In this document: positions 1-15,831 of the stretch, one piece after another
Position numbering within the stretch: position 1 is the stretch's first letter
Layout of the letters: each line of letters starts with the position of its first letter
Source: Bacteroidota bacterium
GTDB lineage: Bacteria; Spirochaetota; Spirochaetia; JABMQR01
Direction of reading: 5' to 3'
Length of the DNA: 15,831 bases
NCBI GenBank assembly: GCA_013202335.1
Contig: JABMQR010000102.1
Span: 1 to 15,831 of the forward strand
Position numbers and translations under genes: made by a program
The notes under the pieces: generated by a model
Told to the model about the DNA's origin: nothing
The model's input: only the letters and a program-made list of their open reading frames with translations
Database searches by the model: none

Positions 1-82
1 ACCTGCAGGTATAATATGCAAACAAATACTTTATGAGAATTAGTATCTATTATTAGCGCTTAATGTTCACAACTGAGCCGGC

Positions 83-589: not shown

Positions 590-650
590 ACTTATATTAC
601 TTAAAAAAGTGATCAAATAATTCAATTATTACAATAATAAAAATGTTTTA

Positions 651-664
651 TCCTCCGTCCCTCT
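651..664 (+). repeat. CCTCCGTCCC word, copy 1 (intergenic, beside RAYT)
   Basis: TCCTCCGTCCCTCT lies between the divergent RAYT and HTH-EIIA genes. It is the only one of nine copies outside a coding or formerly coding sequence. Confidence 0.85.
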
Positions 665-674
665 CACATCCCTA

Positions 675-705
675 TTGACTCAAATTCTTATTAGTACCAT
701 ATTAT
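675..705 (+). promoter_or_regulatory. possible promoter of the EIIA-antiporter operon
   Basis: TTGACT (675-680) is followed by the -10-like CATATT (698-703, 17-bp spacer) or TATTAT (700-705, 19-bp spacer). Either would put the transcript start very close to the Shine-Dalgarno AGAGGA at 713-718, giving an unusually short leader, so this is only a weak assignment. Confidence 0.3.
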
Positions 706-723
706 GGAATATAGAGGAATATA

Positions 724-1431
724 ATGGAAAACAATGACTATTTAATGACTTTAACAGAAGTTGCTAATTACCTAAAGTTATCTGAAAAAACAATCCTTAA
801 AATGATCAAGAACCAGGAAATACCTTGTGCTAAAATTGCAAACCAGTGGCGCTTCCTCCGTCCCTTAATCGAAGATTGGCTTCTGGCAAAAATGAATGTA
901 ATACCACAAAATGACCTCTCCCGGCTAATCGAGGAGCAGTATGACCATGTACCCGTATCACGCTTTACCTCCGTCCCTCTTATAACAGCACTTCCGGAAA
1001 ACACCGACAAACAGGAAGCCCTTCTTCTGCTTACAACTATAGCAAGTGATCACAAAATTATTTCAGACAAAGATACTGTCTATCAGAAACTTATTGAACG
1101 TGAGCAAATGATATCAACAGGCATCGGAAATGGCATAGCAATACCGCATATGCGCAGCCCGTCGTCGTTGGTAATCAATGGGCCAAAGATAGTTATTGGT
1201 TTATCAAAGAAGGGAATATCATACGATTCTTCTGACAATCAGCCTGTTCATCTTATCTTTCTCATTTTAACAGACAGTGAAGTAGTTCATCTGCGGATAA
1301 TGGCGAAATTAGCGCAGATGATCCGCAAAAAAAATATGGCCTCAAATCTTTTAAAGGCCGATACACCGCAAAAAATATTCCAGCAGATAGCATTATTTGA
1401 ACGTAATGAACTGTTGGCACAGGAGGACTAG
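724..1431 (+). CDS. excisionase-type HTH fused to PTS EIIA (Ntr/fructose-like) domain
   Basis: A 235-residue two-domain regulator. Residues about 6-56 form a MerR/excisionase-like winged HTH (TLTEVANYLKLSEKTI, then the QWRF wing and an IEDWLL end). Residues about 85-228 form a PTS EIIA type-2 domain with the phosphorylatable histidine at residue 142 in GNGIAIPH. The inferred role is DNA binding modulated by EIIA phosphorylation (HPr or PtsP as donor), as expected of a nitrogen-PTS-like sensor. The start has AGAGGA five bases upstream. It is the first gene of an operon with a second EIIA protein (4 bp downstream) and a cation/proton antiporter. It contains two copies of the CCTCCGTCCC word. 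HTH-EIIA fusions are, to my knowledge, a recurring spirochaete architecture. It is not a phage excisionase despite the nearby transposase. Confidence 0.85.
   Translation: MENNDYLMTLTEVANYLKLSEKTILKMIKNQEIPCAKIANQWRFLRPLIEDWLLAKMNVIPQNDLSRLIEEQYDHVPVSRFTSVPLITALPENTDKQEALLLLTTIASDHKIISDKDTVYQKLIEREQMISTGIGNGIAIPHMRSPSSLVINGPKIVIGLSKKGISYDSSDNQPVHLIFLILTDSEVVHLRIMAKLAQMIRKKNMASNLLKADTPQKIFQQIALFERNELLAQED
854..866 (+). repeat. CCTCCGTCCC word, copy 2
   Basis: TCCTCCGTCCCTT inside the HTH-EIIA gene, read as codons CTC-CGT-CCC (Leu-Arg-Pro) just after the conserved WRF of the HTH wing. The expected domain length is kept. Confidence 0.8.
968..980 (+). repeat. CCTCCGTCCC word, copy 3
   Basis: CCTCCGTCCCTCT inside the same gene, in the linker between the HTH and EIIA domains, read in another frame as Thr-Ser-Val-Pro-Leu. 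Only 114 bp from copy 2. Confidence 0.85.
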
Positions 1432-1435
1432 AACC

Positions 1436-2236
1436 ATGTTAGTATCATTACAAAAAGAATGTATTTCATTAGGAACTAACGCAAACAGTAAAGATCAGAT
1501 CCTGAGTGAAGTCAGCAGACTGGCAAAAGAATCAAAATTACTTAACAACATTAGTCAGCAGGATATTGAAAAAAAGCTAATCGAGCGTGAAAAAGTATCC
1601 TCAACAGGAATGGAAAATTGCATAGCCATTCCACACTGCAGCTTTGATGAACTTGAAGAATTTACTGTTGGTCTGGTAATCATTTCTGAAGGGATAGACT
1701 TCCAATCAATGGATGATAAACCCGCAAAATTGATTTTCTTTATTATTGGCCCAACAAACCAGCGAAATAAACATATTCAAATAATTTCATCAATAGCCAA
1801 GCTTACAAAGGATGCAGCATTAATTAGTAAATTGCTTAAAAGTAAGGATCCCGAATCTGCATATGAAATTCTTCAAAAAGATATACATATTAAAGAAACA
1901 AATCAGGACGCTAAAAAATATTGTCAATTCACAATCCATATCCAAAACGAAAACCTGTTTACGGATGTGCTGGAAGTGCTTAGTTCAGAGGCTGAAGGAT
2001 CAATATCCGTTCTGGAAACAAATACTGCAGGATACTATCTGCACAAGCTCCCGCTGTTCGCAACTTTCTGGAATTCCTCCGTCCCCAATTTCAGCAGAGT
2101 ACTTATCGCCGTTATCAACAAAAACCTGATGAACGATACACTTCGCCGCATCAATATGTTAAATGAAGATAACACTCCGGGTTTACTTGTCACCGTTCAG
2201 GATATCATTTACCTGGATGGGGCAATAGATTTCTAG
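1436..2236 (+). CDS. PTS EIIA domain fused to a PII-like C-terminal domain
   Basis: A 266-residue protein. Residues about 1-150 are an EIIA type-2 domain with active-site His67 in NCIAIPH. Residues about 163-266 look like a ferredoxin-fold, PII-like regulatory domain: alternating beta strands and helices starting CQFTIHIQ and ending with GLLVTVQDII and DGAIDF. The PII-like reading is inferred from that pattern, not from a full motif. The ATG at 1436 is chosen over a TTG at 1397 because a strong Shine-Dalgarno (AGGAGGA, 1421-1427) precedes it by 8 nt and because the EIIA fold starts there. It lies 4 bp after the HTH-EIIA gene and 21 bp before the antiporter gene. Likely role: phosphorylation- and metabolite-dependent control of the antiporter or of its expression. 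One copy of the CCTCCGTCCC word falls in the C-terminal domain. Confidence 0.8.
   Translation: MLVSLQKECISLGTNANSKDQILSEVSRLAKESKLLNNISQQDIEKKLIEREKVSSTGMENCIAIPHCSFDELEEFTVGLVIISEGIDFQSMDDKPAKLIFFIIGPTNQRNKHIQIISSIAKLTKDAALISKLLKSKDPESAYEILQKDIHIKETNQDAKKYCQFTIHIQNENLFTDVLEVLSSEAEGSISVLETNTAGYYLHKLPLFATFWNSSVPNFSRVLIAVINKNLMNDTLRRINMLNEDNTPGLLVTVQDIIYLDGAIDF
2075..2086 (+). repeat. CCTCCGTCCC word, copy 4
   Basis: TCCTCCGTCCCC in the PII-like domain, read as Ser-Ser-Val-Pro. The flank CCCCAA matches copy 8, suggesting two flank variants of the word. Confidence 0.8.
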
Positions 2237-2257
2237 TAAGTCGACAGGAAAAATATT

Positions 2258-3517
2258 ATGAATATAATAACAAATATACAAAACTATTTTGTTGAAGCAG
2301 GTGTTTCACCTCTGCTTATAGTCGGCTTCATGACGGTAATTGGGTTATATGCCGGGAAAAGCATGAAGTTTATCAAATTACCTTCAATTATCGGGTTTAT
2401 GTTGATTGGGGTTCTTTTAGGACCGTCACTGTTTAACATGCTGCATGAAGAATTTCAGGTTAATCTTGGATTCATTACAGACATTGCATTGAGTTTTGTT
2501 GCAGTCAGCATTGGGATTGAGCTAAGCTTTACAGATCTTAAAAAGCAGGGAAAAGGCATAATTGTTGTAATCATAGCAGAATCATTTCTGGCATTCATTT
2601 TGGTAACCGGTGCTGTATATCTGCTAACAAAGGATATCGCATTGTCACTTATCTTCGGGTCTATTGCTCCTGCAAGTGCTCCGGCTGGTACTGTAGCTGT
2701 AATTCAGGAGTATAAGGCAAAAGGATCATTAACGAAGGCACTGTTTGCAGTAGTTGGTTTTGATGATGGTTTAGGAATAATCATTTTTGGATTTGCCTCT
2801 GCAATTTCACGCTCGATCCTTGGAATTGAAGCAGGAATGGCTTCAGAAGCATGGTACTTGCTTATTCTTGAACCGTTAAAAGAGATAGCTCTCAGCCTTG
2901 CAGTTGGTGGGATTGTTGCATTTATCTTTTGCCTTCTTGCCAGAAAGCTTAATCAAGCACGTGATATATTCATTCTGATTTTTGCGACAATTCTGATATC
3001 AGCAGGGCTATGTAATCTTCTCCATCTTTCAATCATCCTAACTAATATGGTTGTTGGAATTGTTATCGTAAATACTCAGCAAAAAACTCTGGTACAAAAA
3101 ATACATCACGAACTTTCTGAATTTATGCCGATACTCTTTATCATGTTCTTTATACTCGCAGGTGCCAACCTTCACGTTGCAGCACTACCCTCGCTGGGAT
3201 TGCTTGGAATAGTATATATTGCAGCAAGAAGCACGGGATTGGTCGCAGGAGCTTCTCTGGGATCTCTCGCCGGGGGGCTTGAACCAAAAATTCGTAAATA
3301 TTTGGGTATGGGTATTCTTTCCCAGGCTGGAGTCGCAATTGGACTCTCACTTATTGTAAAAAATGAATTCACGGCAATTAGTGCTCATGGGGCTGAAATC
3401 GGCAGTGTGGTAATTACCACTGTAACCGCAACATGTATCTTTTTTGAGATAATCGGACCAATCCTTACAAAAATCGGTCTTGAAAAGGCTGGTGAAATTA
3501 ATCTGCACAAAACATGA
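2258..3517 (+). CDS. cation:proton antiporter (CPA2-type, Na+/H+ or K+/H+)
   Basis: A 419-residue integral membrane protein with about 12-13 predicted transmembrane segments, exchanging Na+ or K+ for protons across the inner membrane. Typical CPA2 features are visible: the early GFMLIGVLLGP loop (residues 46-56), the helix with Asp169-Asp170 in GFDDGLGIIIFG, where this family keeps its ion-binding acidic pair, and the late helices with ARSTGLVAGASLG (323-335) and MGILSQAGVAIGLSL (351-365). The C-terminus is short, with no TrkA-N or TrkA-C domain, so regulation would have to come from separate proteins such as the two EIIA proteins just upstream. The ATG has ACAGGA 8 nt upstream. Ion specificity cannot be read from the sequence. 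The gene ends 17 bp from the convergent SPOR gene, with no obvious terminator. Confidence 0.88.
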   Translation: MNIITNIQNYFVEAGVSPLLIVGFMTVIGLYAGKSMKFIKLPSIIGFMLIGVLLGPSLFNMLHEEFQVNLGFITDIALSFVAVSIGIELSFTDLKKQGKGIIVVIIAESFLAFILVTGAVYLLTKDIALSLIFGSIAPASAPAGTVAVIQEYKAKGSLTKALFAVVGFDDGLGIIIFGFASAISRSILGIEAGMASEAWYLLILEPLKEIALSLAVGGIVAFIFCLLARKLNQARDIFILIFATILISAGLCNLLHLSIILTNMVVGIVIVNTQQKTLVQKIHHELSEFMPILFIMFFILAGANLHVAALPSLGLLGIVYIAARSTGLVAGASLGSLAGGLEPKIRKYLGMGILSQAGVAIGLSLIVKNEFTAISAHGAEIGSVVITTVTATCIFFEIIGPILTKIGLEKAGEINLHKT

Positions 3518-3534
3518 AATTGAAGATGAAAAAT

Positions 3535-4782
3535 CTATCTGGGAATTGTAATTTTGACCGCAGCGGTGTTTTTAAACCCGGCAAGGTCATTAACAATATT
3601 TGTCATAGCAATAGCTTGTTCAACTGAACCGTAGGGACCAAGCCGCAGTTGAAATTCCTGGTTTGAAAGCACTGCTATCGTTCCGGACAGGCCACTCTTT
3701 TGTAATAAATTCAAACCCAGTTCTGCCTGATTCACTGTTGGATAAGTCCCTGCAACTGTCCAATACCTGGGTTCAATTGCTGGAATCTCATAGTAAAGTT
3801 CTTCAGGCTCAATTTCAGGTTCCGGTTCAGGTTCAACAATAGAATCAACTAAAACGGGTTCTTCTGTTGAATCTGCAGCAGTATCTACTATCAGAACTTC
3901 AACAGGAATAGGGTCTGATAAGGGTTCAATTATCTCAGGCACTTCAGAATCATATTCTATAAGACCTTCTGGAATGGGTTCAACTGGTTCCACCTTTGGT
4001 TCCGGCTCCACTATCGCAAGTTCAATTGGTTCGGGTTCGGGCAATACTATCACAGGCTCAACCGGTTCTGGTTCTGGTTCCATTATTGCAAGTTCAACGG
4101 GTTCTGGTTTCGGTTCCATTATCGCAAGTTCAACGGGTTCTGGTTTCGGGATAATATTTCCAACTTTTGGTGTTTCCAGCTCGAGGGAACGTTCATCAGA
4201 ATTTTCAACCTTCACTGCTGTTGTTATTTCAGGAGTTACTATCTCATTTAACAAAGGAACTGAATCTATCACTGTAGTTACAAGATTTTCAATTGGATCT
4301 TCAGGTTCTGATTCAGGTTCTTTCGTATCATCCGTGCTTTCCACAGTTAGTATGTCTGGTGCTGTTGTTTCACTAATAACTTCAGCAGATTCATCCTTCA
4401 ATTCAACCGACAGTACCTCATTTTCTACTGCAACCGTTTCAACAATAGGTTCAACAATTGGGTCATCCAACACTGCCTCAATTGCACTTGATTCAGGTAC
4501 ATCTTCATTATTTGACACTTCAATTTCTGCTGGTTCTGGAACTATTTCAGGAGAATCTAATCTCCTGCCATCGATAATCACAGAGCCGGTAGTAGTTTCA
4601 CGGGTTGATGCTGCAGGAACCTGTGGGATAATCCTAATTGTAACTTTATCGCTATCGAATGTAGCCAGTATGGGTCGTAAGACACTCCGTCCAGGATAGA
4701 AATAGATTAATCCTGTAGTAATAATAATGAGCATAGTTAATGTGATTGAAAAGAGAACCCATAATACAGTTCTGTTTTTCAT
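3535..4782 (-). CDS. membrane-anchored SPOR-domain protein with Pro-Glu-rich linker
   Basis: A 415-residue protein with a short cytoplasmic N-terminus, one transmembrane helix (about residues 7-28), a long acidic Pro/Glu/Val-rich periplasmic linker (about 75-335) and a C-terminal SPOR domain (about 338-412, starting RYWTVAGTY and containing QLRLGPYGS). SPOR domains bind septal peptidoglycan stripped of stem peptides, so a role at the division site or in cell-wall remodelling is expected. The linker contains four tandem 12-residue repeats (residues 213-260). The ATG is preceded by AAGGG six bases upstream. It is the last gene of the minus-strand series after polA and coaE, 48 bp downstream of coaE. 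An open frame antisense to the repeats is a Ser/Gly-rich shadow, not a gene. Confidence 0.85.
   Translation of the reverse strand: MKNRTVLWVLFSITLTMLIIITTGLIYFYPGRSVLRPILATFDSDKVTIRIIPQVPAASTRETTTGSVIIDGRRLDSPEIVPEPAEIEVSNNEDVPESSAIEAVLDDPIVEPIVETVAVENEVLSVELKDESAEVISETTAPDILTVESTDDTKEPESEPEDPIENLVTTVIDSVPLLNEIVTPEITTAVKVENSDERSLELETPKVGNIIPKPEPVELAIMEPKPEPVELAIMEPEPEPVEPVIVLPEPEPIELAIVEPEPKVEPVEPIPEGLIEYDSEVPEIIEPLSDPIPVEVLIVDTAADSTEEPVLVDSIVEPEPEPEIEPEELYYEIPAIEPRYWTVAGTYPTVNQAELGLNLLQKSGLSGTIAVLSNQEFQLRLGPYGSVEQAIAMTNIVNDLAGFKNTAAVKITIPR
4003..4146 (-). repeat. four 36-bp tandem repeats in the SPOR-protein linker
   Basis: Four 12-codon units: KPEPVELAIMEP twice, nearly identical in DNA, then the diverged EPEPVEPVIVLP and EPEPIELAIVEP. 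The high DNA identity of the first two points to recent duplication by slippage, so copy number may vary between strains. Confidence 0.85.
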
Positions 4783-4830
4783 TATAAACCCTTAATAATC
4801 CCGATAAAGAAACAATTTTTTTTTAAAAAA

Positions 4831-5427
4831 TCAATTTATAATATCCAATATTTTCACTATAGAATCAAGCTTTTTGTGCAGATATCGAGTACTTCCAATG
4901 TTCATAACCCTAAATACTTTATACTTCCCGATAAGATTAATTAATCTAATATCTCTCTGGTTCCTATTTCTTTTCACAAAACTATTTAATTTCATACCGC
5001 GTGATTTGCGGGCTCGTAAAAACCTCATACAGAATGGAGCTGAGATAAATAAAACAGAATCACAAAGAGTATCTAATCCCATTCGTGACAAAACAGCAGC
5101 ATTAAGAACAATTCCGGGAGAATTATCATCTAAACTGGAAATAACATTATTACAGGTTTTAACCATGAGTGGATGGAGAAAATTCTCAAGCTTCTTCAAT
5201 AAACTGATATTGTTAAATACTTTCCTGGAAAGAACCTCTCTATCAGCTCCTCCGTCCCTCTTTCTAATATCACTCCCAAAAATCGCAGCGGCAGCAGCAA
5301 CTTCCCGATCCAGAATTTCATGTCCCAAACGGTCTACATCAACCAGCACATAGCCAAGTCCAGATAAATACTCTGCCGCAAGATTCTTCCCGGAACATAT
5401 TCTGCCGGTAAGCCCAATAACAGTCAT
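4831..5427 (-). CDS. coaE: dephospho-CoA kinase
   Basis: A 198-residue P-loop kinase that phosphorylates the 3'-OH of dephospho-CoA in the last step of CoA synthesis, in the cytoplasm. It has the N-terminal P-loop (residues 6-15, GLTGRICSGKN region), the DVDRLGHEI segment, IFGSDI followed by DGGADREVL and VFNN, the LHPLM histidine, and a lid-like RNRNQRD near residue 153. The P-loop ends in Asn where most CoaE proteins have Ser or Thr. Other spirochaetal CoaE proteins, as I recall them, share this variant, so it is probably functional. The start codon overlaps the polA stop by one base (TAATG), indicating translational coupling. One copy of the CCTCCGTCCC word encodes the conserved Asp-Gly-Gly stretch. 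Confidence 0.85.
   Translation of the reverse strand: MTVIGLTGRICSGKNLAAEYLSGLGYVLVDVDRLGHEILDREVAAAAAIFGSDIRKRDGGADREVLSRKVFNNISLLKKLENFLHPLMVKTCNNVISSLDDNSPGIVLNAAVLSRMGLDTLCDSVLFISAPFCMRFLRARKSRGMKLNSFVKRNRNQRDIRLINLIGKYKVFRVMNIGSTRYLHKKLDSIVKILDIIN
5248..5261 (+). repeat. CCTCCGTCCC word, copy 5
   Basis: TCCTCCGTCCCTCT inside coaE. On the coding strand it reads GAGGGACGGAGGA and encodes Arg-Asp-Gly-Gly, coinciding with a conserved DG-x-x-DR position of CoaE. Confidence 0.85.
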
Positions 5428-8174
5428 TAATGCAAATCTCCCCAGCTGTCTCCAGTCTCCAAACTCACACTAAGAGGGACATTTAGAGACACAGCCCCTT
5501 CCATTTCGGTCCTGACAAGCTCGCGCATCTCATCGATTTCATACTCAGGAACCTCAAAGATTAACTCATCGTGCACCTGCAGAACCATCCGCGAAACCAA
5601 ATTCCTTCGATCCATTTGCTCCTGAATACTGATCATTGCAAGCTTCAGAATATCAGCTGCAGTTCCCTGAATTGGTGTATTTACGGCAATACGCTCTGCT
5701 CCGGACCGCTCATTCCTATTTCTACTGGCAATCCCGGGGATTACCCGCTCATGCCCAAGAAGAGTCATTACTTTACCGGTTTTTTCCGCATTTTCAACTG
5801 TCGTATCAATAAATTTTCGAACACCGGAATACCTCTGAAAATATGCTTCAATAAAAACTGCAGCATCTGAACGTGGAATGCCCAATTCCTGAGACAACCT
5901 GAATGCCGACATCCCATACATAACCCCAAAATTTATTGTTTTTGCAATCCTGCGCTGTTCAGCAGTAACGGACTCTGTATCAACACCAAAGATCAAGGCT
6001 CCGGTATACTTATGTACATCACTACCTGTAACAAAGGCCTCTTTTAATCCGGGATCATCAGCAAAATGCGCCAGAACCACCAGCTCGATTTGAGAATAGT
6101 CTGCTGATAAAAATGTGAATCCTTCAGTAGGAACAAAAGCAGAACGAATCCTTCTTCCATCCTCGCTGCGAATAGGAATATTTTGGAGGTTCGGGTTCTT
6201 GCTGGAGAGCCGCCCTGTTGCAGTACCAGTCTGAAGAAGAGTAGTATGCAGTCTGCCAGTATCAGGATTTATTAGCACAGGCAAAGCTTCTACATAGGTG
6301 TTTCTGAGTTTCTCGAGGCTTCGATGCTGAAGAATCAACCCGGGAATAATATCCACCCTGGCAAGTTCTTCAAGCACAGCAACGTTTGTTGAGAAACCGG
6401 TTTTCGTTTTTTTTATGGTGCGCAATCCACGTTCAGTAAAGAGAACTTCCTGGAGCTGTTTCGTAGAGTTTAAATTAAATTCATGCCCACACTCAGTAAA
6501 AATTTCCTCTTTTATCACTTCCAGACGCTCTTTCAATTCTATTTCGTAGGTTTTTAACTGTTCAGGAAGTATCCGCATTCCCCGCAGTTCCATATCTGCA
6601 AGTATTTTGAGGATCGGCATTTCAACATGATACATCACATTTTCCATTCCGCGCTTTTTTATGAGGCTGCTGAGCATGAGGTAAAGACGGTATGTCACAT
6701 CAGCATCCTCAGCCGCATATTCTGAAGCTTTCGCAAGCTCAATATCTGGAAAAAGAAACCCTTTGGGAACAACATCACTATATTTTATGGTTGTGTAGTT
6801 TAAATAGGTTTCTGCAAGCCGGTCCATATTGAAGGCAGCTGCCGTTGAATTAAGCAGCCATGCCGCAATCATGGTATCAAAGTATATTGCAGACTGATTT
6901 ATCCCCCATCTTTTCAACACTTTATAATCATACTTATAATTCTGCCCGATGATTTTCATATCCGGGTTTTCAAGAAGCTGTTTTAGCTCTGTTCTGACCT
7001 CAGTTTCAGGCAGTTCCTCCGTCCCTCCTGCCCGCAAAGGAATATAAAAACCTTTGCAGAGTTCCCAAGATATTGAGAAACCTACAGGGGTTGCCTGCAT
7101 GTCATTGATGCTATCCGTTTCAATATCAAATGCAGCCTCACCTTTTTCAAGAGCCTGTTCGATGATTTTCTGAAGTTGAGTAATTGATTTAACTGTTTTA
7201 TAGGACCCTTTTCCGGAAAGTTTACCCAAAAACTTCTCCTCTTCAGCATCAACACTACTTTTTTCTGCCAGGTTTCCTTTACGGGCAGAACGTATTGCCT
7301 CCACCCCTCCGCCGGCAGCTGCAACAAGGCTTGAAGATTGAATCTCCTGAAAAACCGGTACAGCACCTGTCCAATCAACATCTGATACTGCCAGATCTTT
7401 TATGCTAATAGTTTCGCAATCAGCATCTTTCTGGAGAACGATCAGTTCTCTGCTAAGATATGCATTATCTCTGTTTTCACTGAGTTTTTTGGATGCTCCA
7501 GCGGGAATATCATTAAGATGATCGTAAATAGTATCGAGATCTCCATATTCCGCGAGCAGTTTAACAGCACCTTTGGGACCAATCCCTTTAACACCAGGGA
7601 TATTGTCCGAGGCATCCCCTATCAGAGATAAGTAGTCGACGACCTGATCTGGACGAACGCCTAGATGATCATACACGGTTTGTGCATCGAATCGAATATA
7701 TTCGCCTTTAACCGGGCGAAGCATAAAAACAGAATCCCCAATGAGCTGCATTAAATCCTTATCGCCGGTAAGAATCAGGCACTCCATCCCATCCATCCTG
7801 CAGTTGTGGGCAAGTGTCGCAATCAGGTCATCGGCCTCAAGCCCATTTTGGCGCAAACAGCTGACTCCGGCACCATTAAGAGCTTTCTCAACCAGAGGGA
7901 TCTGGCTCCGAAGATCATCAGGAGTCTTGTCTCGAGTGGCCTTGTATTCAGGATACATCTTATGTCTGAATGTGGGAGTTTTCGAATCCATAGCAACAGC
8001 AATGTATTCAGGTTTATACTCTTTAAGAAGCGCAAACAGGGTTCGGAAAAAACCAAACACCACGGATACGTTACGTCCCGAGGAATCTCTGATCGGCCTG
8101 TTGATAAATGCAAAATATGACCGGTATATCAAAGCATACCCATCTACCACCAGGAATTGTTTTTTTGGATTCAT
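5427..8174 (-). CDS. polA: DNA polymerase I
   Basis: A 915-residue, three-domain repair and Okazaki-fragment-processing polymerase. Residues about 5-290 are the 5'-nuclease (DGYALIYRSYFAF, AMDSKTPTFR, LEADDLIA, TGDKD, GDASDNIPGVKGIGPKGA). Residues about 330-505 are the 3'-5' exonuclease with all catalytic residues present: Asp350 and Glu352 in FDIETDS, Asp416 in GQNYKYD, and Tyr486/Asp490 in YAAED. Residues about 520-915 are the polymerase: motif A with Asp692 (ADYSQIELVVLAH), motif B (RRIAKTINFGVMYG) and motif C (VHDELIFE, Asp869). Proofreading is therefore probably intact, unlike in several bacterial PolI lineages. The ATG has GGAG five bases upstream and overlaps the upstream hydrolase stop as ATGA. 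The stop overlaps the coaE start. A copy of the dispersed word encodes GGTEE at residues 383-387, in a loop of the exonuclease domain. Confidence 0.97.
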   Translation of the reverse strand: MNPKKQFLVVDGYALIYRSYFAFINRPIRDSSGRNVSVVFGFFRTLFALLKEYKPEYIAVAMDSKTPTFRHKMYPEYKATRDKTPDDLRSQIPLVEKALNGAGVSCLRQNGLEADDLIATLAHNCRMDGMECLILTGDKDLMQLIGDSVFMLRPVKGEYIRFDAQTVYDHLGVRPDQVVDYLSLIGDASDNIPGVKGIGPKGAVKLLAEYGDLDTIYDHLNDIPAGASKKLSENRDNAYLSRELIVLQKDADCETISIKDLAVSDVDWTGAVPVFQEIQSSSLVAAAGGGVEAIRSARKGNLAEKSSVDAEEEKFLGKLSGKGSYKTVKSITQLQKIIEQALEKGEAAFDIETDSINDMQATPVGFSISWELCKGFYIPLRAGGTEELPETEVRTELKQLLENPDMKIIGQNYKYDYKVLKRWGINQSAIYFDTMIAAWLLNSTAAAFNMDRLAETYLNYTTIKYSDVVPKGFLFPDIELAKASEYAAEDADVTYRLYLMLSSLIKKRGMENVMYHVEMPILKILADMELRGMRILPEQLKTYEIELKERLEVIKEEIFTECGHEFNLNSTKQLQEVLFTERGLRTIKKTKTGFSTNVAVLEELARVDIIPGLILQHRSLEKLRNTYVEALPVLINPDTGRLHTTLLQTGTATGRLSSKNPNLQNIPIRSEDGRRIRSAFVPTEGFTFLSADYSQIELVVLAHFADDPGLKEAFVTGSDVHKYTGALIFGVDTESVTAEQRRIAKTINFGVMYGMSAFRLSQELGIPRSDAAVFIEAYFQRYSGVRKFIDTTVENAEKTGKVMTLLGHERVIPGIASRNRNERSGAERIAVNTPIQGTAADILKLAMISIQEQMDRRNLVSRMVLQVHDELIFEVPEYEIDEMRELVRTEMEGAVSLNVPLSVSLETGDSWGDLH
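7015..7027 (+). repeat. CCTCCGTCCC word, copy 6
   Basis: TCCTCCGTCCCTC inside polA. The coding strand reads GGG-ACG-GAG-GAA (Gly-Thr-Glu-Glu), a different codon phase from the coaE copy. Confidence 0.85.
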
Positions 8175-9438: not shown

Positions 9439-9455
9439 ATCACACCTCATGTTCA

Positions 9456-9484
9456 AGCATACATTGAATTAGTGCTAATTACAA
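9456..9484 (-). promoter_or_regulatory. possible sigma70 promoter with palindrome in the spacer
   Basis: On the minus strand TTGTAA (9484-9479) and TATGCT (9461-9456) are separated by exactly 17 bp. Each matches four of six consensus bases. The spacer and -35 overlap an inverted repeat AATTAG-TG-CTAATT (9467-9480) that could be an operator. The site fits a promoter for the hypothetical-MBL-polA-coaE-SPOR group inside the gap after ptb. Confidence 0.4.
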
Positions 9485-9499
9485 TCAGAAGTACTATAT

Positions 9500-10462
9500 T
9501 CAGACTGTTTCAACCATCCCTGCAGAAACTGCAAGAGCCATATAAAGTGAAAGAAATCGGGTAGTGTTATTGTCAGATCGGGAGGTTAGCACAACAGGAA
9601 CACGTAAGCCTGCAATAATCCCCGCAGTTAGGCTTCCCTGCTGGACTGAAAACGATTTGTAAAGGACGTTACCAGCATCAAGATTCGGCATTAACAGAAT
9701 ATCGGGATCCCCCGGAACTTTCCCTGCTAAACTTTTCACTTTTGCAGCTTCGCTTGAGAAAGCTACATCAAGAGCCATAGGACCTTCGATTACAGCATCA
9801 CCAAAAAAACGTGTAGAGTTCTGGCACTGCACCAACTTTTCAGCATCAACTGTTGAGATGATTTTGGGATTCACTGTCTCTACGGGGCAGATACAGGCTA
9901 CAGAGGGACGGAGGATTCCGAGGGCACGAGCGACCTGGACGGCATTAAAAAGTATTTTCTTTTTCTTTTCAAAGTCCTGTCTGGTATTAATAGCTCCATC
10001 CGTCAGCAGGAAGGGTTTTTTATATCCTGTAAGCTTAAAAAGAGCTGTGTGGCTGATCAAACCACCTTTTGGTACTAATCCCTTTGTTTTATCAAGAAAT
10101 GCGCTGGTAAAGACAGAGGTGTGTACTCCGCCCTTCATCAGGACATGTGCCGACCCGTCTGCGGCGGCTAAGACAGCCTTTTCTGCCGCTTCTTTAGGAC
10201 CGCTGCAGTTAACAGTCTCAAAATCACGAATATCAATATTGCCCAAATTAGCAATTTTCCTGATATTTTCTGTATCACCAAAAAGCAAAAAATCTGCAAT
10301 TCCTGCATCAAATGCCTGCTTAATGCTTTGAAGGGTTGCCAAATGGTCTGCTGCAGCTACTGCTACCGTCACTTTACTGTTTTGCACTGGTTGGTAGCCG
10401 GTGTCCGGGAAAAGGGTTTGAATCAAGTCGGTAAATTCACTTTTAACTGCATCAATCATCAT
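9500..10462 (-). CDS. ptb: phosphate butyryltransferase
   Basis: A 320-residue cytoplasmic acyltransferase that converts (iso)butyryl-CoA or a branched acyl-CoA plus phosphate to acyl-phosphate plus CoA. It belongs to the PTA/PTB family: VLMKGGVHTSVF, SHTALFKLTGYKKPFLLTDGAI, GPMALDVAFSSEAAKVKS, GDPDILLMPNLDAGNVLYKS and a C-terminal PVVLTSRSDN. Length fits Ptb (about 300 aa), and the partner buk gene directly upstream supports Ptb over a Pta. The start is ambiguous. The frame runs up to a TTG at 10480, but ATG at 10462 or 10459, with AGGAG/CCAGGA just before, is likelier; both overlap the end of buk by 8-11 nt. One copy of the dispersed word encodes Leu-Arg-Pro-Ser ahead of the conserved Val-Ala strand. 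Confidence 0.92.
   Translation of the reverse strand: MMIDAVKSEFTDLIQTLFPDTGYQPVQNSKVTVAVAAADHLATLQSIKQAFDAGIADFLLFGDTENIRKIANLGNIDIRDFETVNCSGPKEAAEKAVLAAADGSAHVLMKGGVHTSVFTSAFLDKTKGLVPKGGLISHTALFKLTGYKKPFLLTDGAINTRQDFEKKKKILFNAVQVARALGILRPSVACICPVETVNPKIISTVDAEKLVQCQNSTRFFGDAVIEGPMALDVAFSSEAAKVKSLAGKVPGDPDILLMPNLDAGNVLYKSFSVQQGSLTAGIIAGLRVPVVLTSRSDNNTTRFLSLYMALAVSAGMVETV
9902..9915 (-). repeat. CCTCCGTCCC word, copy 7
   Basis: Plus strand AGAGGGACGGAGGA, so the word runs on the minus strand, in the sense direction of ptb, as CTC-CGT-CCC-TCT (Leu-Arg-Pro-Ser). It is the same codon phase as copy 2. Confidence 0.85.
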
Positions 10463-11534
10463 TATCCTGGTACTCCTCAACTTCTCTCGTGCCGTTTATG
10501 GCTGCAAGTGCATTCTCTGCCAGGGCATACATTTCTCGTTCTCCGGGTATTTCAATAATAGGAGCTATAAAAGAGATACGTTCTTTTAGAAGTTCCATCG
10601 TCGTTTCTGATTGCGCTATACCACCGGTCAACACAACAGCATCCACTTTCCCGCCAAAAACCGCTGCCATAGCACCTATTTCCTTGGCAGTTTGATACAC
10701 CATTGCTTTGTGATAAAGATCTGCTTCAATATCACCGGCAGCTGCCCTTCTTACAATTCTCCGGACATCATGGGTTCCACAATATGCATAAAGTCCGCCT
10801 TTCCCGCAAATACGTTTATGCATCTCTTCGGGTTTAAAGGTTCCGGATAATGCCAGCGTTACCAGATCCGATGCAGGCAGCCCGCCGGAGCGTTCCGGAG
10901 AAAAGGGGCCATCGCCATTCAGGGCATTGTTAACATCAATTACCCGCCCATTCAGATGCGCACCAACTGATATTCCACCGCCCATATGTGCAACTATAAA
11001 ACTCGATTTCTCATAAGGTATTCCGAGTTGAGCAGCGGCGGCCTCAGCAGCACTTTTTTGATTTAATGCATGAAAGATGCTCCGTCTTTTAATTTCAGGG
11101 ATTCCTGAAACCCGTGCTATATCACTTAGCTCATCGACCACTATCGGGTTTGCAATATAAGAGGGAGCTCCGACCTGTTCACTGATTCGGCACACCAGAA
11201 GAGCACCCAGATTGCTGGCATGCTCACCGTACTCTGCTCCGCGTAAAATTCGTATCATATCGGGAGTCACCAGATAGATTCCGCTCATAACAGGCTTCAG
11301 CATCCCTCCGCGCCCGATAAATGCGTCGATTATTGAAATATCAATTTCATTCTCTTCAAGAAACTTCATAACAAATGTGTATCTGAAAGCTTCCTGGTCA
11401 ATAACATATTGAAACACAGAGAGGTCCTGTGATGAGTGATGATAGGTAACTTTTATTTTTTCATCAAGGTTGTGAAACAAGGAGATTTTAGTTGATGTTG
11501 ATCCGGGATTTATTACAAGGATTTTGTATATCAT
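10452..11534 (-). CDS. buk: butyrate kinase (branched-chain acid kinase)
   Basis: A 360-residue acetate/butyrate-kinase-family enzyme transferring phosphate from (iso)butyryl-phosphate or branched acyl-phosphate to ADP. Visible features are the N-terminal VINPGSTSTKISLF phosphate motif, HMGGGISVGAHLNGRVIDV (near residue 184), ALNGDGPFSPERSGGLP, and the nucleotide-binding VVLTGGIA near the C-terminus. Length and the GDGPFSPERSG motif favour Buk over acetate kinase. The ATG at 11534 is chosen over a TTG at 11549 because it begins the family N-terminus and has GGGGGA upstream. The reading frame overlaps ptb at its 3' end. With the VOR genes upstream the physiological substrates are probably isobutyryl-, 2-methylbutyryl- and isovaleryl-phosphate. 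This is inferred from context. Confidence 0.94.
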   Translation of the reverse strand: MIYKILVINPGSTSTKISLFHNLDEKIKVTYHHSSQDLSVFQYVIDQEAFRYTFVMKFLEENEIDISIIDAFIGRGGMLKPVMSGIYLVTPDMIRILRGAEYGEHASNLGALLVCRISEQVGAPSYIANPIVVDELSDIARVSGIPEIKRRSIFHALNQKSAAEAAAAQLGIPYEKSSFIVAHMGGGISVGAHLNGRVIDVNNALNGDGPFSPERSGGLPASDLVTLALSGTFKPEEMHKRICGKGGLYAYCGTHDVRRIVRRAAAGDIEADLYHKAMVYQTAKEIGAMAAVFGGKVDAVVLTGGIAQSETTMELLKERISFIAPIIEIPGEREMYALAENALAAINGTREVEEYQDNDD

Positions 11535-11588
11535 AGTTATTTCCCCCAATTATTATCATAAGAGGCTCTTTCAAAATTAGTAATAATG

Positions 11589-11629
11589 AATCAACCTATG
11601 GTTGATTTTTATTAAATCATAGATTTAAT
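11589..11629 (-). promoter_or_regulatory. twin perfect hairpins between VOR genes and buk
   Basis: Two 19-bp palindromes of identical geometry, 8-bp arms and a 3-nt loop, sit 3 bp apart: ATTAAATC-ATA-GATTTAAT (11611-11629) and AATCAACC-TAT-GGTTGATT (11589-11607). The first spans the stop codon of the VOR fusion gene. In the transcribed (minus) direction neither is followed by a U-run, so they look more like an RNA processing or stability element, an attenuator or a tandem operator than a standard terminator. In the plus direction the AATCAACC hairpin is followed by a short T-run. Confidence 0.5.
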
Positions 11630-13080
11630 TTTAGATTTTTGAAATTGGTCTCATAATACTCCAAAGCTTTATCTACAATTCTCAGATTTGTAGCCACAAA
11701 CTCTTTTCGGCTTACACTTGTTGGGATAATTTTTTTCAACGTTTCAGGCGGCATAATCCCCTTATGACGAAGATACACAGTAAGCAGAATAACATTTGCC
11801 GCAGCAGTTAATCCCTCTTCTGCTGCGAGATCAGAAGCTGGTATATACAATACCGAGACATCGTCCCGATTAACTTTTCGTGTAACAATTGATGAGTTGA
11901 CTAATATCAGCCCGCCGGGAACTACATCGTCCTCAAAAGCATCCAGTGAAGGACCATTCATTGCGATAAGAACATTCGGGTCATCAATAACCGGTGATCC
12001 GATTTCATCATTGGAAAGAATAACACTTGCATATGCTTTTCCACCACGCATTTCCGGTCCGTAGGAAGGAAGCCATGAGGCATGAACACCTTCAGCTATT
12101 CCGCATTTTGCAAGCAGAGTTCCACAGGAAAGAACACCTTGTCCCCCAAAGCCTGCAATCTTGACCAGCTGATCCTCATCAAGTTGTAAAATTTCGAGAT
12201 TTGGGATGGGGGCATCACCGTTCAATAGTGAGATGAGTTCTGCCTCCTGCATAAATGGAATTTCTTCTGACGCAATTGCCTTGTGTGCCTCCAGGGTAGA
12301 ATCTATTGGATTCATGGTGCTGCAGGTGTCTCTGAAACAGGCTACCGGAAAAACGGGTTCTAAATTCTCTGCAAGCCACTTTCGAGACTCAACCGGTTCC
12401 ATTTTCCAGTTAACCGGACAGGGGGAGAGTATTTCAATGAAAGAGAAACCTTTACCCTCAACTTGGTATTTTAGCCCTTTTCGTACAGCTTTCCTGGTCT
12501 TTAGAACCCCTTTAGCTGAGGAAAGTGTTACCCGCTCAATATAAACAGGGGTCGAAATGGCATTAATTATTTCCGCCATCCCAATTGGCAGTCCATCCCT
12601 TCCGGCATCCCTTCCTGTGGGAGTTGTCAGGGTCTTCTGTCCCTGGAGAGTTGTGGGAGCCATCTGACCGCCGGTCATACCATAGATTGCGTTATTTACA
12701 AAAAATACCGTCATATTTTCACCGCGATTTGCGGCATGTATGATTTCCGAGGTACCAATTCCGGCAAGATCTCCATCACCCTGATAGGAGATTATTATCG
12801 CATCTTTGTGAACTCTGCGAACGCCCGTTGCCACAGCCGGAGCCCTTCCATGTGAGCACTGAATATTACCGGCATCAAAATAGTAATATGCAAATACAGA
12901 ACAGCCAACGGGTGAGTGAAAAATCACCCGGTCCTTTACGCCCAATTCATCTATAGCCTCAGCAATTAATTTGTGTATGGTTCCATGACCACATCCCGGA
13001 CAGTAATGTGTTGATGCCGTATTTTGTCCTTTTCTCTCAAAGGTTTCATAGAAGGCTGCTGGTTTTTCATGCTTAATCAT
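11617..13080 (-). CDS. 2-oxoisovalerate:ferredoxin oxidoreductase, fused beta and gamma subunits
   Basis: A 487-residue fusion. Residues about 1-255 are the thiamine-diphosphate-binding beta subunit: YCPGCGHG with Cys27 and Cys30, HGRAPAVATG, and the TPP/Mg motif from GDGDLAG (101-107) to VNNAIYGMTGGQ (128-139). A linker follows (about 256-305). Residues about 306-480 are the gamma subunit (AGFGGQGVLSCG, SWLPSYGPEMRGG). With the alpha subunit and ferredoxin it should oxidatively decarboxylate branched-chain 2-oxoacids to acyl-CoA, CO2 and reduced ferredoxin. Many VOR/KOR enzymes carry gamma as a separate protein. The frame is continuous and uninterrupted, so the fusion looks real. The ATG overlaps the alpha-subunit stop (ATGA), with GGGGG upstream. 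Substrate choice (branched-chain rather than 2-oxoglutarate) relies on the alpha subunit and on buk-ptb. Confidence 0.9.
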   Translation of the reverse strand: MIKHEKPAAFYETFERKGQNTASTHYCPGCGHGTIHKLIAEAIDELGVKDRVIFHSPVGCSVFAYYYFDAGNIQCSHGRAPAVATGVRRVHKDAIIISYQGDGDLAGIGTSEIIHAANRGENMTVFFVNNAIYGMTGGQMAPTTLQGQKTLTTPTGRDAGRDGLPIGMAEIINAISTPVYIERVTLSSAKGVLKTRKAVRKGLKYQVEGKGFSFIEILSPCPVNWKMEPVESRKWLAENLEPVFPVACFRDTCSTMNPIDSTLEAHKAIASEEIPFMQEAELISLLNGDAPIPNLEILQLDEDQLVKIAGFGGQGVLSCGTLLAKCGIAEGVHASWLPSYGPEMRGGKAYASVILSNDEIGSPVIDDPNVLIAMNGPSLDAFEDDVVPGGLILVNSSIVTRKVNRDDVSVLYIPASDLAAEEGLTAAANVILLTVYLRHKGIMPPETLKKIIPTSVSRKEFVATNLRIVDKALEYYETNFKNLKLNL

Positions 13081-14156
13081 GCGTTGCCCCCACTGTTGGT
13101 TTTTCCCAGTTTTTTGAGATCAGCTGTTACTTTTTCCGTAAGTTCTTTTACCGTGGGGACAATTCCCCCGAGCCAATTATAGCGCAGGATCTCTGAACCT
13201 CCCTGTACACTAAGCTCAACATCATCAGCCATCATACCGGTATTGAGTTCCACAACTGCCAAAGGTTTTTTCATATCTGCAAGTCTGTTAATAGCTTTAT
13301 TGGGGAAAGGAAACAGTGTTTTGGGGCGGAAAAAACCAACTTTATAGCCCTCTTTCCGCATTATCATCATCACCGTATGGCATAACCGGGAACATATCCC
13401 GAATGCAGTTAATACAATATCAGCATCTTCTGTGCCGTACTCTTCATATTCAACACAATTCTCCTCAAGCTGACGATACTTATTCTGGAGATGTTCATTA
13501 TGATTACTCATTTTCAGCGGGTTCATCAAAATGGAGGTTATAAGATTCCCGCGGCTTTCCGCATCTCCGTAAACCGCCCAATCTTTTCGTTTTCCCAAGG
13601 TTGCGGTTTCCGGAATATCAACTGGTTCCATCATCTGCCCGATATAGGCATCGCTCAGGATAATTACGGTCATACGGTAAGCATCCGCTAATTCAAAAGC
13701 CTTTCGGGTCATATCACACATTTCCTGGGCCGAATTCGGAGCAAATACGATATTACTATAGTTGCCGTGACCGCCGCCTTTTACCGTAGCGTTATAATCA
13801 CTCTGCTCAGGCCATATATTGCCAAGTCCAGGTCCTGCACGCTGCACATCCACAACTACAGAGGGAAGTTCTGCACCGGCTAAATAGGACAAACCCTCAG
13901 CCATTAGTGAGAGACCTGGTCCCGATGTTGCGGTCATTGTTCTGGCCCCGGCACTGGATGCTCCATAAATCATGTTAATTGCCGCTATTTCAGATTCTGC
14001 CTGGAGGAAGGTTCGTCCTGAAGCGGTAAAAAAAAGGGCTGCTGCATGCGCTATTTCACTGGCCGGAGTTATTGGGTAGCCGAAAAAATGTGTAGCTCCT
14101 CCTGTAAGAGCCCCATATACAACTGCTTCATTACCTTTCATCAATATTCTGCTCAT
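13077..14156 (-). CDS. vorB: 2-oxoisovalerate:ferredoxin oxidoreductase alpha subunit
   Basis: A 359-residue pyrimidine-binding alpha subunit. Residues 1-190 hold MKGNEAVVYGAL, the GYPITPASEI loop, ATSGPGLSLMAEGLSYLAG and VVVDVQRAGPGLG, then NIWPEQSDYNATVKGGGHG, with LSDAYIGQMMEPV ending the domain. About 230-345 is the transketolase C-terminal-like domain (VLTAFGICSR, FFRPKTLFPFP). The KGGGHG segment with APNSAQEM and the QMMEPV ending fit VorB better than KorA or PorA, so valine-, leucine- and isoleucine-derived 2-oxoacids are the likely substrates. The start has a G-rich Shine-Dalgarno ending GGAG seven bases upstream. It begins 2 bp after the ferredoxin gene and overlaps the beta-gamma gene by 4 nt. 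Confidence 0.92.
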   Translation of the reverse strand: MSRILMKGNEAVVYGALTGGATHFFGYPITPASEIAHAAALFFTASGRTFLQAESEIAAINMIYGASSAGARTMTATSGPGLSLMAEGLSYLAGAELPSVVVDVQRAGPGLGNIWPEQSDYNATVKGGGHGNYSNIVFAPNSAQEMCDMTRKAFELADAYRMTVIILSDAYIGQMMEPVDIPETATLGKRKDWAVYGDAESRGNLITSILMNPLKMSNHNEHLQNKYRQLEENCVEYEEYGTEDADIVLTAFGICSRLCHTVMMIMRKEGYKVGFFRPKTLFPFPNKAINRLADMKKPLAVVELNTGMMADDVELSVQGGSEILRYNWLGGIVPTVKELTEKVTADLKKLGKTNSGGNA

Positions 14157-14158
14157 GA

Positions 14159-14407
14159 TTAAGCTCCCCCCCCTGTTCCTGTTCTTTCCTGAGGTTTTTC
14201 ATTCTTAATAACTGTTATTGCCCCGGGTTCGGGACAGACATAGAAACAGAGACCGCAGGCTACACAGCGATCCTCCCCAATAAACACAGCATTCTGATAT
14301 CCCATTGAGTTAAAATCTGATCCTATTGTCAAACAGTGATTTGGGCAGGTTTGCACGCATACCCGGCATCCTTTGCATTGATCAGCCGTTATTATTACAT
14401 AATTCAT
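14159..14407 (-). CDS. 2x[4Fe-4S] ferredoxin, VOR delta subunit
   Basis: An 82-residue ferredoxin-like electron carrier subunit. Two complete cluster motifs: Cys11, 14, 17, 21 (CKGCRVCVQTCP) and Cys48, 51, 54, 58 (CVACGLCFYVCP), giving two [4Fe-4S] clusters that pass electrons from the TPP site to external ferredoxin. It ends in a Gly-rich tail. The ATG has GGAG seven bases upstream and overlaps, as ATGA, the stop of an upstream 52-codon open frame without a start. It is the first intact gene of the VOR-buk-ptb cluster. Confidence 0.93.
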   Translation of the reverse strand: MNYVIITADQCKGCRVCVQTCPNHCLTIGSDFNSMGYQNAVFIGEDRCVACGLCFYVCPEPGAITVIKNEKPQERTGTGGGA

Positions 14408-14562
14408 AATTCATCTCCAAACTTTTCGTCAGCACACTCGTTAAAATAGTTTATCTTACTGATCATTCCGATGTACTTTCCCGATACATCTTTACTATCA
14501 GCGCTTAATACAAGCACTAAATCAACGTTACCGGACAGGTAGAGAATTATGCCTTTAAGGGA
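14404..14562 (-). pseudogene. possible gene tail upstream of the ferredoxin (no start codon)
   Basis: A 52-codon open frame bounded upstream by TAA (14563-14565) and ending in TGA that overlaps the ferredoxin ATG as ATGA. It reads like protein (GNVDLVLVLSADSKDVSG, then YIGMISKINYF), with a hydrophobic strand and a helix. It has no ATG until the last 20 codons, though a GTG could start a 37-residue peptide. The coupled stop suggests the 3' end of a former operon gene. A faint likeness to the end of an EIIA domain is too weak to name it. Confidence 0.3.
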
Positions 14563-14587
14563 TTAACAATCATCACTGCAGAAATAG

Positions 14588-14866
14588 CGTTCCATCAGAA
14601 AAACACTACAGGCGGGTCTCCTTGCCTCGACTATCGCCCTTTCAGTTATGTCCAATGGAACAATTCGCATGACTGCCCTATCAGGCCTCTACAAAGAAAA
14701 CACTCAAGATCGAAATCAACTGCTTGAGATTCTTAGGATCTTAGTGAACTTCGATTCCATACGCACTCTTCCAATCACCGTTGATCAGTTTAATAAGCAG
14801 GAAGAAACAGCTTCACGCTCAATAACTATTGTACAATCGGCTAATTTAGGTGTCAAACAATGTTGA
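14588..14866 (+). pseudogene. unrecognised gene fragment without a proper start
   Basis: The frame is open from a TAG at 14585-14587 to TGA at 14864-14866 (92 codons). The first ATG is at 14648, with no clear Shine-Dalgarno, while protein-like sequence (TLQAGLLASTIALSVMSNGT) already runs upstream of it. Later parts, DRNQLLEILRILVNFDSI and SITIVQSANLG, alternate helix and strand. There is a faint resemblance to the C-terminal part of DUF58 proteins, which I cannot confirm. Taken as the 3' remnant of a lost gene. The stretch from here to about 15000 is AT-rich and I see nothing else in it. Confidence 0.35.
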
Positions 14867-15128
14867 CGATATCGAAACAGATCAGCACTCCAAGAATTAA
14901 CAATTCAGGAAATCTTTGGGTTACTGCATGTATGATCACAATATAATCAGAATTTATCAATTAGTCATTATTAACTAGCTAGCATTTAAATAGAATTAAG
15001 TAGAGGTCGGTCAAAAAAAACAGTCATTAATGTTATTCCTTTCCCGATTTCAAATTTTATATGCTATACTTTTTAAAGTTACATTATGTCACATTTTATA
15101 CACCAAGGGAGAGCTGAACTATCTTGTT

Positions 15129-15140
15129 GGGGACGGAGGA
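15129..15140 (-). repeat. CCTCCGTCCC word, copy 8
   Basis: Plus strand GGGGACGGAGGA, reverse orientation, at the apparent frame junction of the transporter pseudogene. The flank (CCCCAA on the minus strand) is shared with copy 4. Confidence 0.8.
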
Positions 15141-15667
15141 AGCCTTCACATCGACCCTGCAGATCATTATGTTTGTTGTCTCCTTTATCTTTTACCCTCC
15201 CACAACTTTTATAGCGAAAAAAACGGACAAAAAGCGATTGATGATCATTGCTTTTTATTCTGATACTGGTGTTTTCATTAATCATGATTTTAGGAAAAGT
15301 TCCTTTATCATACACTTTACAGGGATATTTATTAATAATTTTGATGGGAATTCCTCTTGCTGTCTTTGGGATACTGCCTAACTCCATAATCGGTGATATT
15401 GCTGAAGCAGATGCTGTTGTTACGGGGCAGAATAAAACTGCAATTTTTTATGGAGCAAGGACGTTTATGTCCAAAATAGGCCAAATGATAGCAGGTCTTA
15501 TATTCCCATCACTTCTTTTAATTGGAAGTATCCGGGATAATGATATTGGAATCAGGCTAACCGGTTTAGCTGCTGTTTTTTTTGTGGTTATTGGATTATT
15601 ATGTTTTCTCTATTATGATGAAAATAAAGTGTTGAGGATTCTCAGGGATCATGCTTCAAAGCAGAGT

Positions 15668-15680
15668 TCCTCCGTCCCTC
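15668..15680 (+). repeat. CCTCCGTCCC word, copy 9
   Basis: TCCTCCGTCCCTC in the codons for the hydrophilic C-terminal tail of the transporter remnant (Ser-Ser-Val-Pro-Pro), beyond the last transmembrane helix. Confidence 0.85.
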
Positions 15681-15736
15681 CAGAAGTCCCTGCTACAAAT
15701 AACAGCCAAAATTCTGATAAAAATGGAGACTGATAC

Positions 15737-15831
15737 ATGGACCTGTATTATATAGTTGTTATCCTAATTGCAATTTGCCTGGCAATATATTTGGGAACGG
15801 GATATCTTATCGGCAGACATATGGCCCGAAA
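15737..15831 (+). CDS. membrane-anchored protein, N-terminus only (runs off the window)
   Basis: The first 31 codons of a gene cut by the window edge. It starts at an ATG 3 bp after the transporter stop, with GGAG eight bases upstream. The sequence MDLYYIVVILIAICLAIYLG is a single N-terminal transmembrane helix followed by a basic segment (IGRHMAR). RmuC-type and other singly anchored proteins begin like this, but the fragment is too short to name. Its tight placement suggests it was co-transcribed with the now broken transporter. Confidence 0.6.
   Translation, partial: MDLYYIVVILIAICLAIYLGTGYLIGRHMAR

Follow-up and report, generated by a model that had tools for sequence, protein, structure and literature searches.

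A non-palindromic word recurring within genes around RAYT-like transposase genes of spirochaetes

Introduction

Repetitive extragenic palindromic (REP) sequences and their transposases, the REP-associated tyrosine transposases (RAYTs), are widespread, and the benefit of the enzyme and the spread of the repeats are open questions. Here we describe a related arrangement on contig JABMQR010000102.1 (positions 1 to 15,831; assembly GCA_013202335.1, placed by GTDB in the Spirochaetia). This stretch of 15,831 nt, the window, carries a short non-palindromic word, GGGACGGAGG (other strand CCTCCGTCCC), which adjoins a RAYT-like gene and recurs mostly within genes. We consider it about 60% probable that the resident RAYT recognises this word, whose copies would have formed and persisted in place and gathered in cis.

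Palindromic REPs are known to co-vary with their RAYTs and to accumulate locally (PMC2817692, PMC3116915, PMC6006769). Three marine gammaproteobacteria and a betaproteobacterium were reported to have such accumulations near their rayt genes (Nunvar 2010, PMC2817692), and Quentin 2018 (PMC6006769) looked for GT[AG]G hairpins. The present locus resembles such TnpAREP-REPtron systems in that a Y1 transposase is flanked by a repeat of its own, which in several but not all copies also stands inverted on the opposite side, in that repeat and RAYT co-vary, and in that the genome count tracks the resident RAYT. In contrast to them the window copies show neither a palindrome nor a GTAG or GTGG head, are mostly intragenic and have only 11-12 nt in common, and the length of the word sites is unchanged in close relatives.

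REPINs are likewise short over-represented oligomers tied to RAYTs (Bertels 2011, PMC3116915), and inverted pairs stand beside some RAYTs in our data. The window words, however, are single and mostly intragenic, whereas gene overlap in SBW25 was confined to 14 of the 16-mers (PMC3116915). The GTAG/CGTC palindromic repeats (Di Nocera 2013, PMC3733652) share with the word the CGTC motif, spirochaete hosts and the existence of intragenic copies. They differ in being palindromes of 20-40 bp, and the CGTC repeats are reported to lack a dedicated transposase (PMC3733652). The window word contains CGTC perhaps by coincidence.

DNA uptake sequences and uptake signal sequences (DUS/USS) have a core of ~10 nt, degenerate edges, variants by clade and copies within genes. 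The window word has all of these traits. It is unlike DUS/USS in not being dense genome-wide in the nearest relatives (20 and 23 copies) and in being tied to, and clustered around, a RAYT. Among the matches listed for the letters of GGGACGGAGG and for RAYT/REP in the literature, no description of such words was found. Linkage of RAYT and repeat and local accumulation are thus already known; new here is a word that is non-palindromic, intragenic and built by substitution.

Results

A recurrent word beside a RAYT-like gene

The RAYT-like (IS200-like Y1) transposase gene lies at 83..590 on the minus strand, with an ATG at 590; the open reading frame (ORF) extends to 625 from a TTG. Its product matches PF01797 (Y1_Tnp) with 51.9 bits (cut-off 23) and NF047646 (REP_Tyr_transpos) with E 1.5e-19 (match 1-146 of 146), the score of 70.3 bits being below the cut-off of 80. 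The translation contains HIH and the tyrosine in YISHNP. Hence the gene combines the Y1_Tnp domain, the HUH motif and the catalytic tyrosine by which a RAYT protein is recognised. Some RAYTs of relatives that adjoin a word do pass the 80-bit cut-off (in genomes G010, G016, G020, G021, G023 and G024). A PDB sequence search with the RAYT protein gave no match at E 1e-3, and a search of viral contigs, made for close relatives only, confirmed no RAYT relative.

The first word copy (652..661, plus strand) is intergenic, ~60 nt upstream of the RAYT ATG, and reads GGGACGGAGG on the RAYT sense strand. The window shows this upstream side only. In several relatives, not in all, the word also stands inverted on the far side of the RAYT, so that inverted word pairs adjoin some of these genes. 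For three RAYT copies of G010 the homology starts at the word; of the 30 nt that precede it 8-12 are identical, of the 30 nt that follow 24-30.

Altogether the window holds nine exact copies, compared with a mean of 0.01 and a maximum of 1 in 200 dinucleotide shuffles. A sequence-only reading of the window had reported nine dispersed copies and is borne out in this; the places it gave were approximately right and off by 0 to 3 bases. The plus-strand copies start at 652, 855, 968, 2076, 5249, 7016 and 15669, the minus-strand copies at 9905 and 15130. It had also seen a longer core and a second ending, and indeed the 13-mer TCCTCCGTCCCTC is exact in five copies while those at 2076 and 15130 continue as CCCCA. 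Its statement that no hairpin forms agrees with our folding of nine stretches of 60-70 nt as DNA (z-scores -1.14 to 1.22). The hairpin or palindrome expected at each copy of a REP is therefore not seen at the nine window copies, and a GTAG or GTGG head is absent in the contexts inspected around copies.

A or G precedes the word, read as GGGACGGAGG, in 9/9 window copies, and it precedes 248 of 252 word copies in fetched stretches. The base after the word is A or T in 215/252, with mostly C in G021. Beyond 11-12 nt nothing is common to the copies in these stretches. The word is best spelled RGGGACGGAGG(W).

Word variants are linked to RAYT types

For 60 fetched rows of spirochaete RAYTs, which represent 55 distinct places by hand count, we inspected the flanking sequence from -300 to +450. 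The pattern RGGGWCRGAGN occurs in the flanks of 36/60 rows (33/55 distinct places, by hand), with 88 words in all. The reversed control pattern is found in 2/60 rows with 2 words.

The variant differs between RAYTs. Flanks carry GGGACGGAGG in the window, G020 and G021, GGGACGGAGC in G010 and G051, and GGGACAGAGC in G016, G023, G083 and G222. GGGACAGAGG is found in G016 too, GGGACAGAGT in G024 and GGGTCGGAGG in G003; GGGTCAGAGC/T is found in a supported clade of its own. Mapped on the tree, which comprises 53 RAYTs, the variant labels require 15 changes compared with a shuffled mean of 29.7, and 0/200 shuffles are as low, a clustering to which near-copies contribute. Word variants thus partly follow the RAYT tree. 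As in REP systems, repeat type co-varies with RAYT type, with the exception of GGGACAGAGC.

Genomes tend to be enriched for the variant of their own RAYT

Genome-wide counts are given as word/reversed word; the reversed word is an imperfect null, and most genomes compared are metagenome-assembled genomes (MAGs). By PolA the nearest relatives of the window are two spirochaete MAGs at 87% identity (loci L001 and L002) and one at 71% (L003). The sequence-only reading had called for such counts in relatives, and the word does exceed its control in the two nearest, with 20/3 in G001 (L001) and 23/1 in G002 (L002). Of the G002 copies, 8/23 are located in the 20.8 kb fetched around polA, a region syntenic with the window. 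Among the 24 genomes counted, further high values are 140/16 in G006, 23/5 in G010, 24/5 in G020 and 106/5 in G021. Counts in the remaining 18 go from 0 up to 28, the latter in G017 (28/13). A RAYT is present in 13/24 genomes by NF047646 at E 1e-5, seven of them above the cut-off.

Other variants behave similarly. GGGACAGAGC reaches 74/0 in G016 and 40/3 in G023, GGGACGGAGC 37/3 in G010 and 70/6 in G021. GGGTCGGAGG is found 22/11 times in G003, 9 of the 22 copies being on the RAYT contig. For RGGGACRGAG, at least 30 copies at >=1.9x control were found in 5/246 spirochaete genomes (G051, G083, G016, G084 and G222), thresholds that were chosen after the counts were seen. All five fall among the seven genomes with a close RAYT (E <= 1e-25). 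The occurrence of GGGTCAGAG in RAYT flanks led to the prediction that RGGGTCAGAG is enriched in the respective genomes. This was the case in 10/10 (28-209 copies, control 1-8); seven further genomes of the clade without a word at the fetched RAYT were left out of this test. Ten other genomes have 1-21 copies at control values of 3-18, with the highest ratio in G024 (16/4). Taken together, genomes tend to be enriched for the variant found at their own RAYT.

Words cluster around some RAYTs

Where it can be measured, the clustering is centred on RAYTs and specific for the variant. Breznakiella homolactica (G024) provides a complete isolate chromosome. A single RAYT was found in it, and 17/46 copies of RGGGACAGAG are at most 10 kb away from this gene, with none at 10-20 kb (p 1e-28 under a uniform null). 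Ten of these 17 are within ORFs, and their final base is T, as in the word of the RAYT itself, in 11 cases, C in 5 and G in 1. In G222, 18/86 words lie within 10 kb of one of three RAYT hits, partly as an array with 21-bp spacing.

G016 keeps two variants. Within 10 kb of the GGGACAGAGC-carrying RAYTs (contigs C2 and C50) there are 12 copies of GGGACAGAGC and 0 of GGGACAGAGG; around the GGGACAGAGG-carrying RAYTs (C4 and C6) there are 20 of GGGACAGAGG and 1 of GGGACAGAGC (Fisher p 3.7e-8). Without the words in or within 500 bp of RAYT genes the counts, made by hand, are 6, 0, 12 and 1. The Fisher test excludes the fifth RAYT (C12), whose flanks contain both variants and whose surroundings hold 9 and 7 copies of them.

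Two further features of word arrangement were seen. The words RGGGACAGAG of G024 (locus L198 and whole chromosome) show a strand bias of 36 forward to 10 reverse, which holds outside the cluster, the control being 5 to 9. Tandem word arrays are found at G186:C22:19-123 with a spacing of 19 bp and at G222:C1:780271-780427 with a spacing of mostly 21 bp.

The words lie within genes

The sequence-only reading assigned the word to none of the genes. This does not hold, as 7/9 window copies are within long stop-to-stop ORFs. The same applies to 17/23 words in G002, 11/12 in G001, 40/47 in G006, 26/34 in G021, and 39/50 and 32/39 in G016, with only 3/8 in G010; the stretches were chosen for words or RAYTs, and ORFs cover 0.87-0.95 of them. 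An extragenic position, as the name REP implies, is therefore not a property of most of these words.

Two copies (855..864 and 968..977, both plus) fall in a gene with HTH_17 and PTS EIIA_2 domain matches (724..1431, plus) and one (2076..2085, plus) in a second gene with a PTS EIIA_2 match (1397..2236, plus). By profile matches, the copy at 5249..5258 (plus) lies in the dephospho-CoA kinase gene coaE (4831..5427, minus), that at 7016..7025 (plus) in the DNA polymerase I gene polA (5427..8174, minus) and that at 9905..9914 (minus) in a phosphate acetyl/butyryltransferase-like (ptb-like) gene (9500..10480, minus). An MFS_2-like ORF (15248-15733) contains the copy at 15669..15678 (plus), and the one at 15130..15139 (minus) lies upstream of it. 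This ORF is C-terminal and its upstream frame appears broken; both words are in the stretch 15079-15733.

At the G001 locus L156:865-2256 (G001:C55) no RAYT match adjoins the HTH-EIIA gene. The place of the RAYT is taken by an ORF in which Transketolase_C and iron alcohol dehydrogenase domains are joined; a word lies close to the start of this ORF.

In the window a sodium/hydrogen exchanger gene (PF00999, 2258-3517) directly follows the two PTS EIIA_2 genes. An ORF at 3535-4782 (minus) contains 36-bp direct repeats at 3997-4176 and has no Pfam match.

Sites in close relatives differ without change in length

At the six coding sites (855, 968, 2076, 5249, 7016 and 9905) there is no gap within 3 residues in L001/L156, L002 and L003 where these cover them, L002 covering only 5249, 7016 and 9905. 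The DNA alignments are gapless within the word for L001, L156 and L002. The DNA of L003 has two compensating one-base gaps at 855 and a 3-base gap besides others at 9905, none of which shows in the protein. Among all covering relatives, gaps within 3 residues occur in 14/81 for polA and 19/73 for coaE, mostly in distant ones, in 0/8 for ptb and in 0/2, 0/3 and 0/2 for the PTS sites. Sites of L001, L156 and L002 without a word match it at 7 or 8 of 10 bases, which is about background identity. An insertion of the word as an element is thus not supported in the aligned close relatives.

Site by site, the copies at 855 and 2076 are exact in L156 (G001) and not found in L003, and at 968 L156 has 7/10 bases without a gap. 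The coaE copy is exact in both L001 and L002. The polA copy is exact in L002 and absent in L001 and L003, again without a gap; L001 polA has a word of its own where the window reads CCTCCACCCC. The ptb-like copy is exact in L002, with 7/10 bases in L001.

Words in two Breznakiella genes were compared likewise. The aspS word has no gap within several residues of it versus solved AspRS. The leuC word falls in a gap versus distant solved structures; among 119 relatives of 78-84% identity, 109 are gapless within 3 residues and 115 inside the four residues of the word. These relatives read GEGQ, GDKT, GDKS and similar where Breznakiella has GDRA.

Some copies are conserved in position. The window and L002 align over 9.7 kb at 78.1% identity; 3/3 words of each are common and exact there, at a 10-mer background of 9.35%. 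Compared with L001/L156, 3/6 window words are exact (background 13.6-15.1%), and between L001 and L002 one of the two words of L001 is exact. In a protein search with coaE, RDGG was kept in 8/11 rows, query included. Because of this conservation, protein constraint may help to keep the coaE word.

Copies with a single mismatch are few in the window group, which has 10 beside 44 exact copies, compared with 6.8 expected. G006 has 15 (expected 16.4) and G021 13 (expected 10.4), and G016 has more than expected. For the 16-mers of Bertels 2011 (PMC3116915), 1053 exact copies and 1249 with up to one change are given. We regard this argument from the mutation cloud as weak.

Discussion

The sequence-only reading left the choice between a genome-level signal and the mark of a mobile repeat. 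The latter comes close, as the word is tied to a RAYT, with the reservation that the sites in close relatives differ by substitution and not by an inserted piece. We favour the interpretation given at the outset, a recognition word formed and kept in place around its RAYT. The RAYT, whose gene the word adjoins, would be a HUH/tyrosine nuclease of the type that acts on single strands, and by analogy with known TnpAREP proteins (Corneloup 2021, PMC8266576) it presumably binds the word, or cuts it, in single-stranded form. New exact copies would form in place as base substitutions hit sequence that is already present and for the most part coding, frequently no more than ~10 kb from the RAYT gene, and some would then be kept exact. 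Linkage to the RAYT would drive the local build-up. Either alleles with words near the RAYT gene would be favoured, by selection or by biased recombination in cis, or the RAYT would help to convert near-matching sites.

Several observations weigh against this interpretation. No word was found at 24/60 RAYT rows, the GGGACAGAGC label taken by itself shows no clustering there (6 changes on the tree, 6.7 on average in shuffles), and the nearest tree row of the window RAYT (G003) carries a different variant, GGGTCGGAGG. Enrichment and RAYT do not always coincide. G244 and G166 carry close RAYTs without enrichment, and G084 is enriched (37/13) though its RAYT flanks lack the word. Many words without a RAYT found are present in G001 (20/3) and G017 (28/13, and 28/5 for GGGTCGGAGG); G002 (23/1) holds only a RAYT from a clade without words, and G006 (140/16) only a RAYT fragment at a contig end, with its listed words scattered across many contigs. 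GGGACGGAGC exceeds its control without a known RAYT carrier in G024 (29/2) and G008 (10/0), as does RGGGTCAGAG in G024 (16/4), a variant not known at the RAYTs of this genome. Clusters of GGGACAGAGC also occur on G016 contigs without a RAYT found, with 7 copies on C36 (L191) and 6 on C7 (L192). In addition, L001 lacks two of the three words common to the window and L002, and single-mismatch copies are moderately in excess in G016 (~29 versus 17, its other variant left out).

Among the other explanations, templated patching by the RAYT survives best. Single-stranded pieces of the RAYT ends might anneal at nearby near matches and overwrite them. This would match the substitution mode and the local reach, and the small number of single-mismatch copies in the window group is consistent with it. 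A longer common tract is missing, however, and near matches are not depleted in G006, so that patching appears unlikely to us. As both edges are degenerate (R and W) with nothing shared beyond, selection or drive acting on the recognition site is likelier than templated copying.

The words might also be tiny transposed elements, that is, solo RAYT ends of the REP kind, that have inserted. The linkage to RAYTs with their flanking word copies and the start of homology at the word in the three G010 copies suit this explanation, and such behaviour has been proposed for REP-RAYT systems (Nunvar 2010, PMC2817692). Against it, the sites in close relatives are of unchanged length, 7-8 of 10 bases are already there where L001, L156 and L002 lack the word, and the fetched copies have nothing in common past 11-12 nt. 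Insertion is thus quite improbable.

A word kept for the cell (an uptake signal, a Chi- or KOPS-like site, where KOPS are FtsK orienting polar sequences, or a methylation target), with RAYTs landing where it is dense, would explain why the word is non-palindromic, lies in coding DNA, is formed by substitution and has variants by clade. These traits are common to DUS/USS, and the many words over the contigs of G006 agree with it. Counts are low in the nearest relatives, however, with just 20-23 copies in 2-2.8 Mb, and those of G002 are clustered. The steep drop past 10 kb in G024 and the two variants around different RAYT copies of G016 are further arguments against such a function. An even genome-level signal does not agree with the counts and the clustering in the nearest relatives and in G024. 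This half of the sequence-only reading finds little support, with words that are mostly intragenic and clustered rather than even in relatives, G006 being perhaps an exception, and we judge any such cell-serving word to be very unlikely. Chance or an assembly artefact, suggested at most by the use of mainly MAGs, can be dismissed in view of 0.01 copies in shuffles versus nine, of a cluster in a complete isolate chromosome and of the same positions recurring in MAGs with different isolate names.

A recognition word built in cis allows for a further, rather speculative idea. RAYTs of this group could be cis-selfish, in that they write the word they recognise into host genes nearby. Through a linked word the RAYT, or the stretch carrying it, would be inherited more often; exact words would accumulate by substitution up to a linkage distance of ~10 kb, and each RAYT copy would keep its own variant. 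If true, this would be a gene-drive-like system that builds its sites without inserting DNA.

For the REP field, the present case offers a repeat stripped down to a word, which is found in genes like polA, aspS and leuC, marks its enzyme and clusters around several copies of it. Distance, variant and gain by substitution provide a readout suited for telling drive from selection, and this in a completely sequenced isolate. Where words are clustered in coding DNA caution is in order, as they may stem from a nearby transposase and not from the function of the gene.

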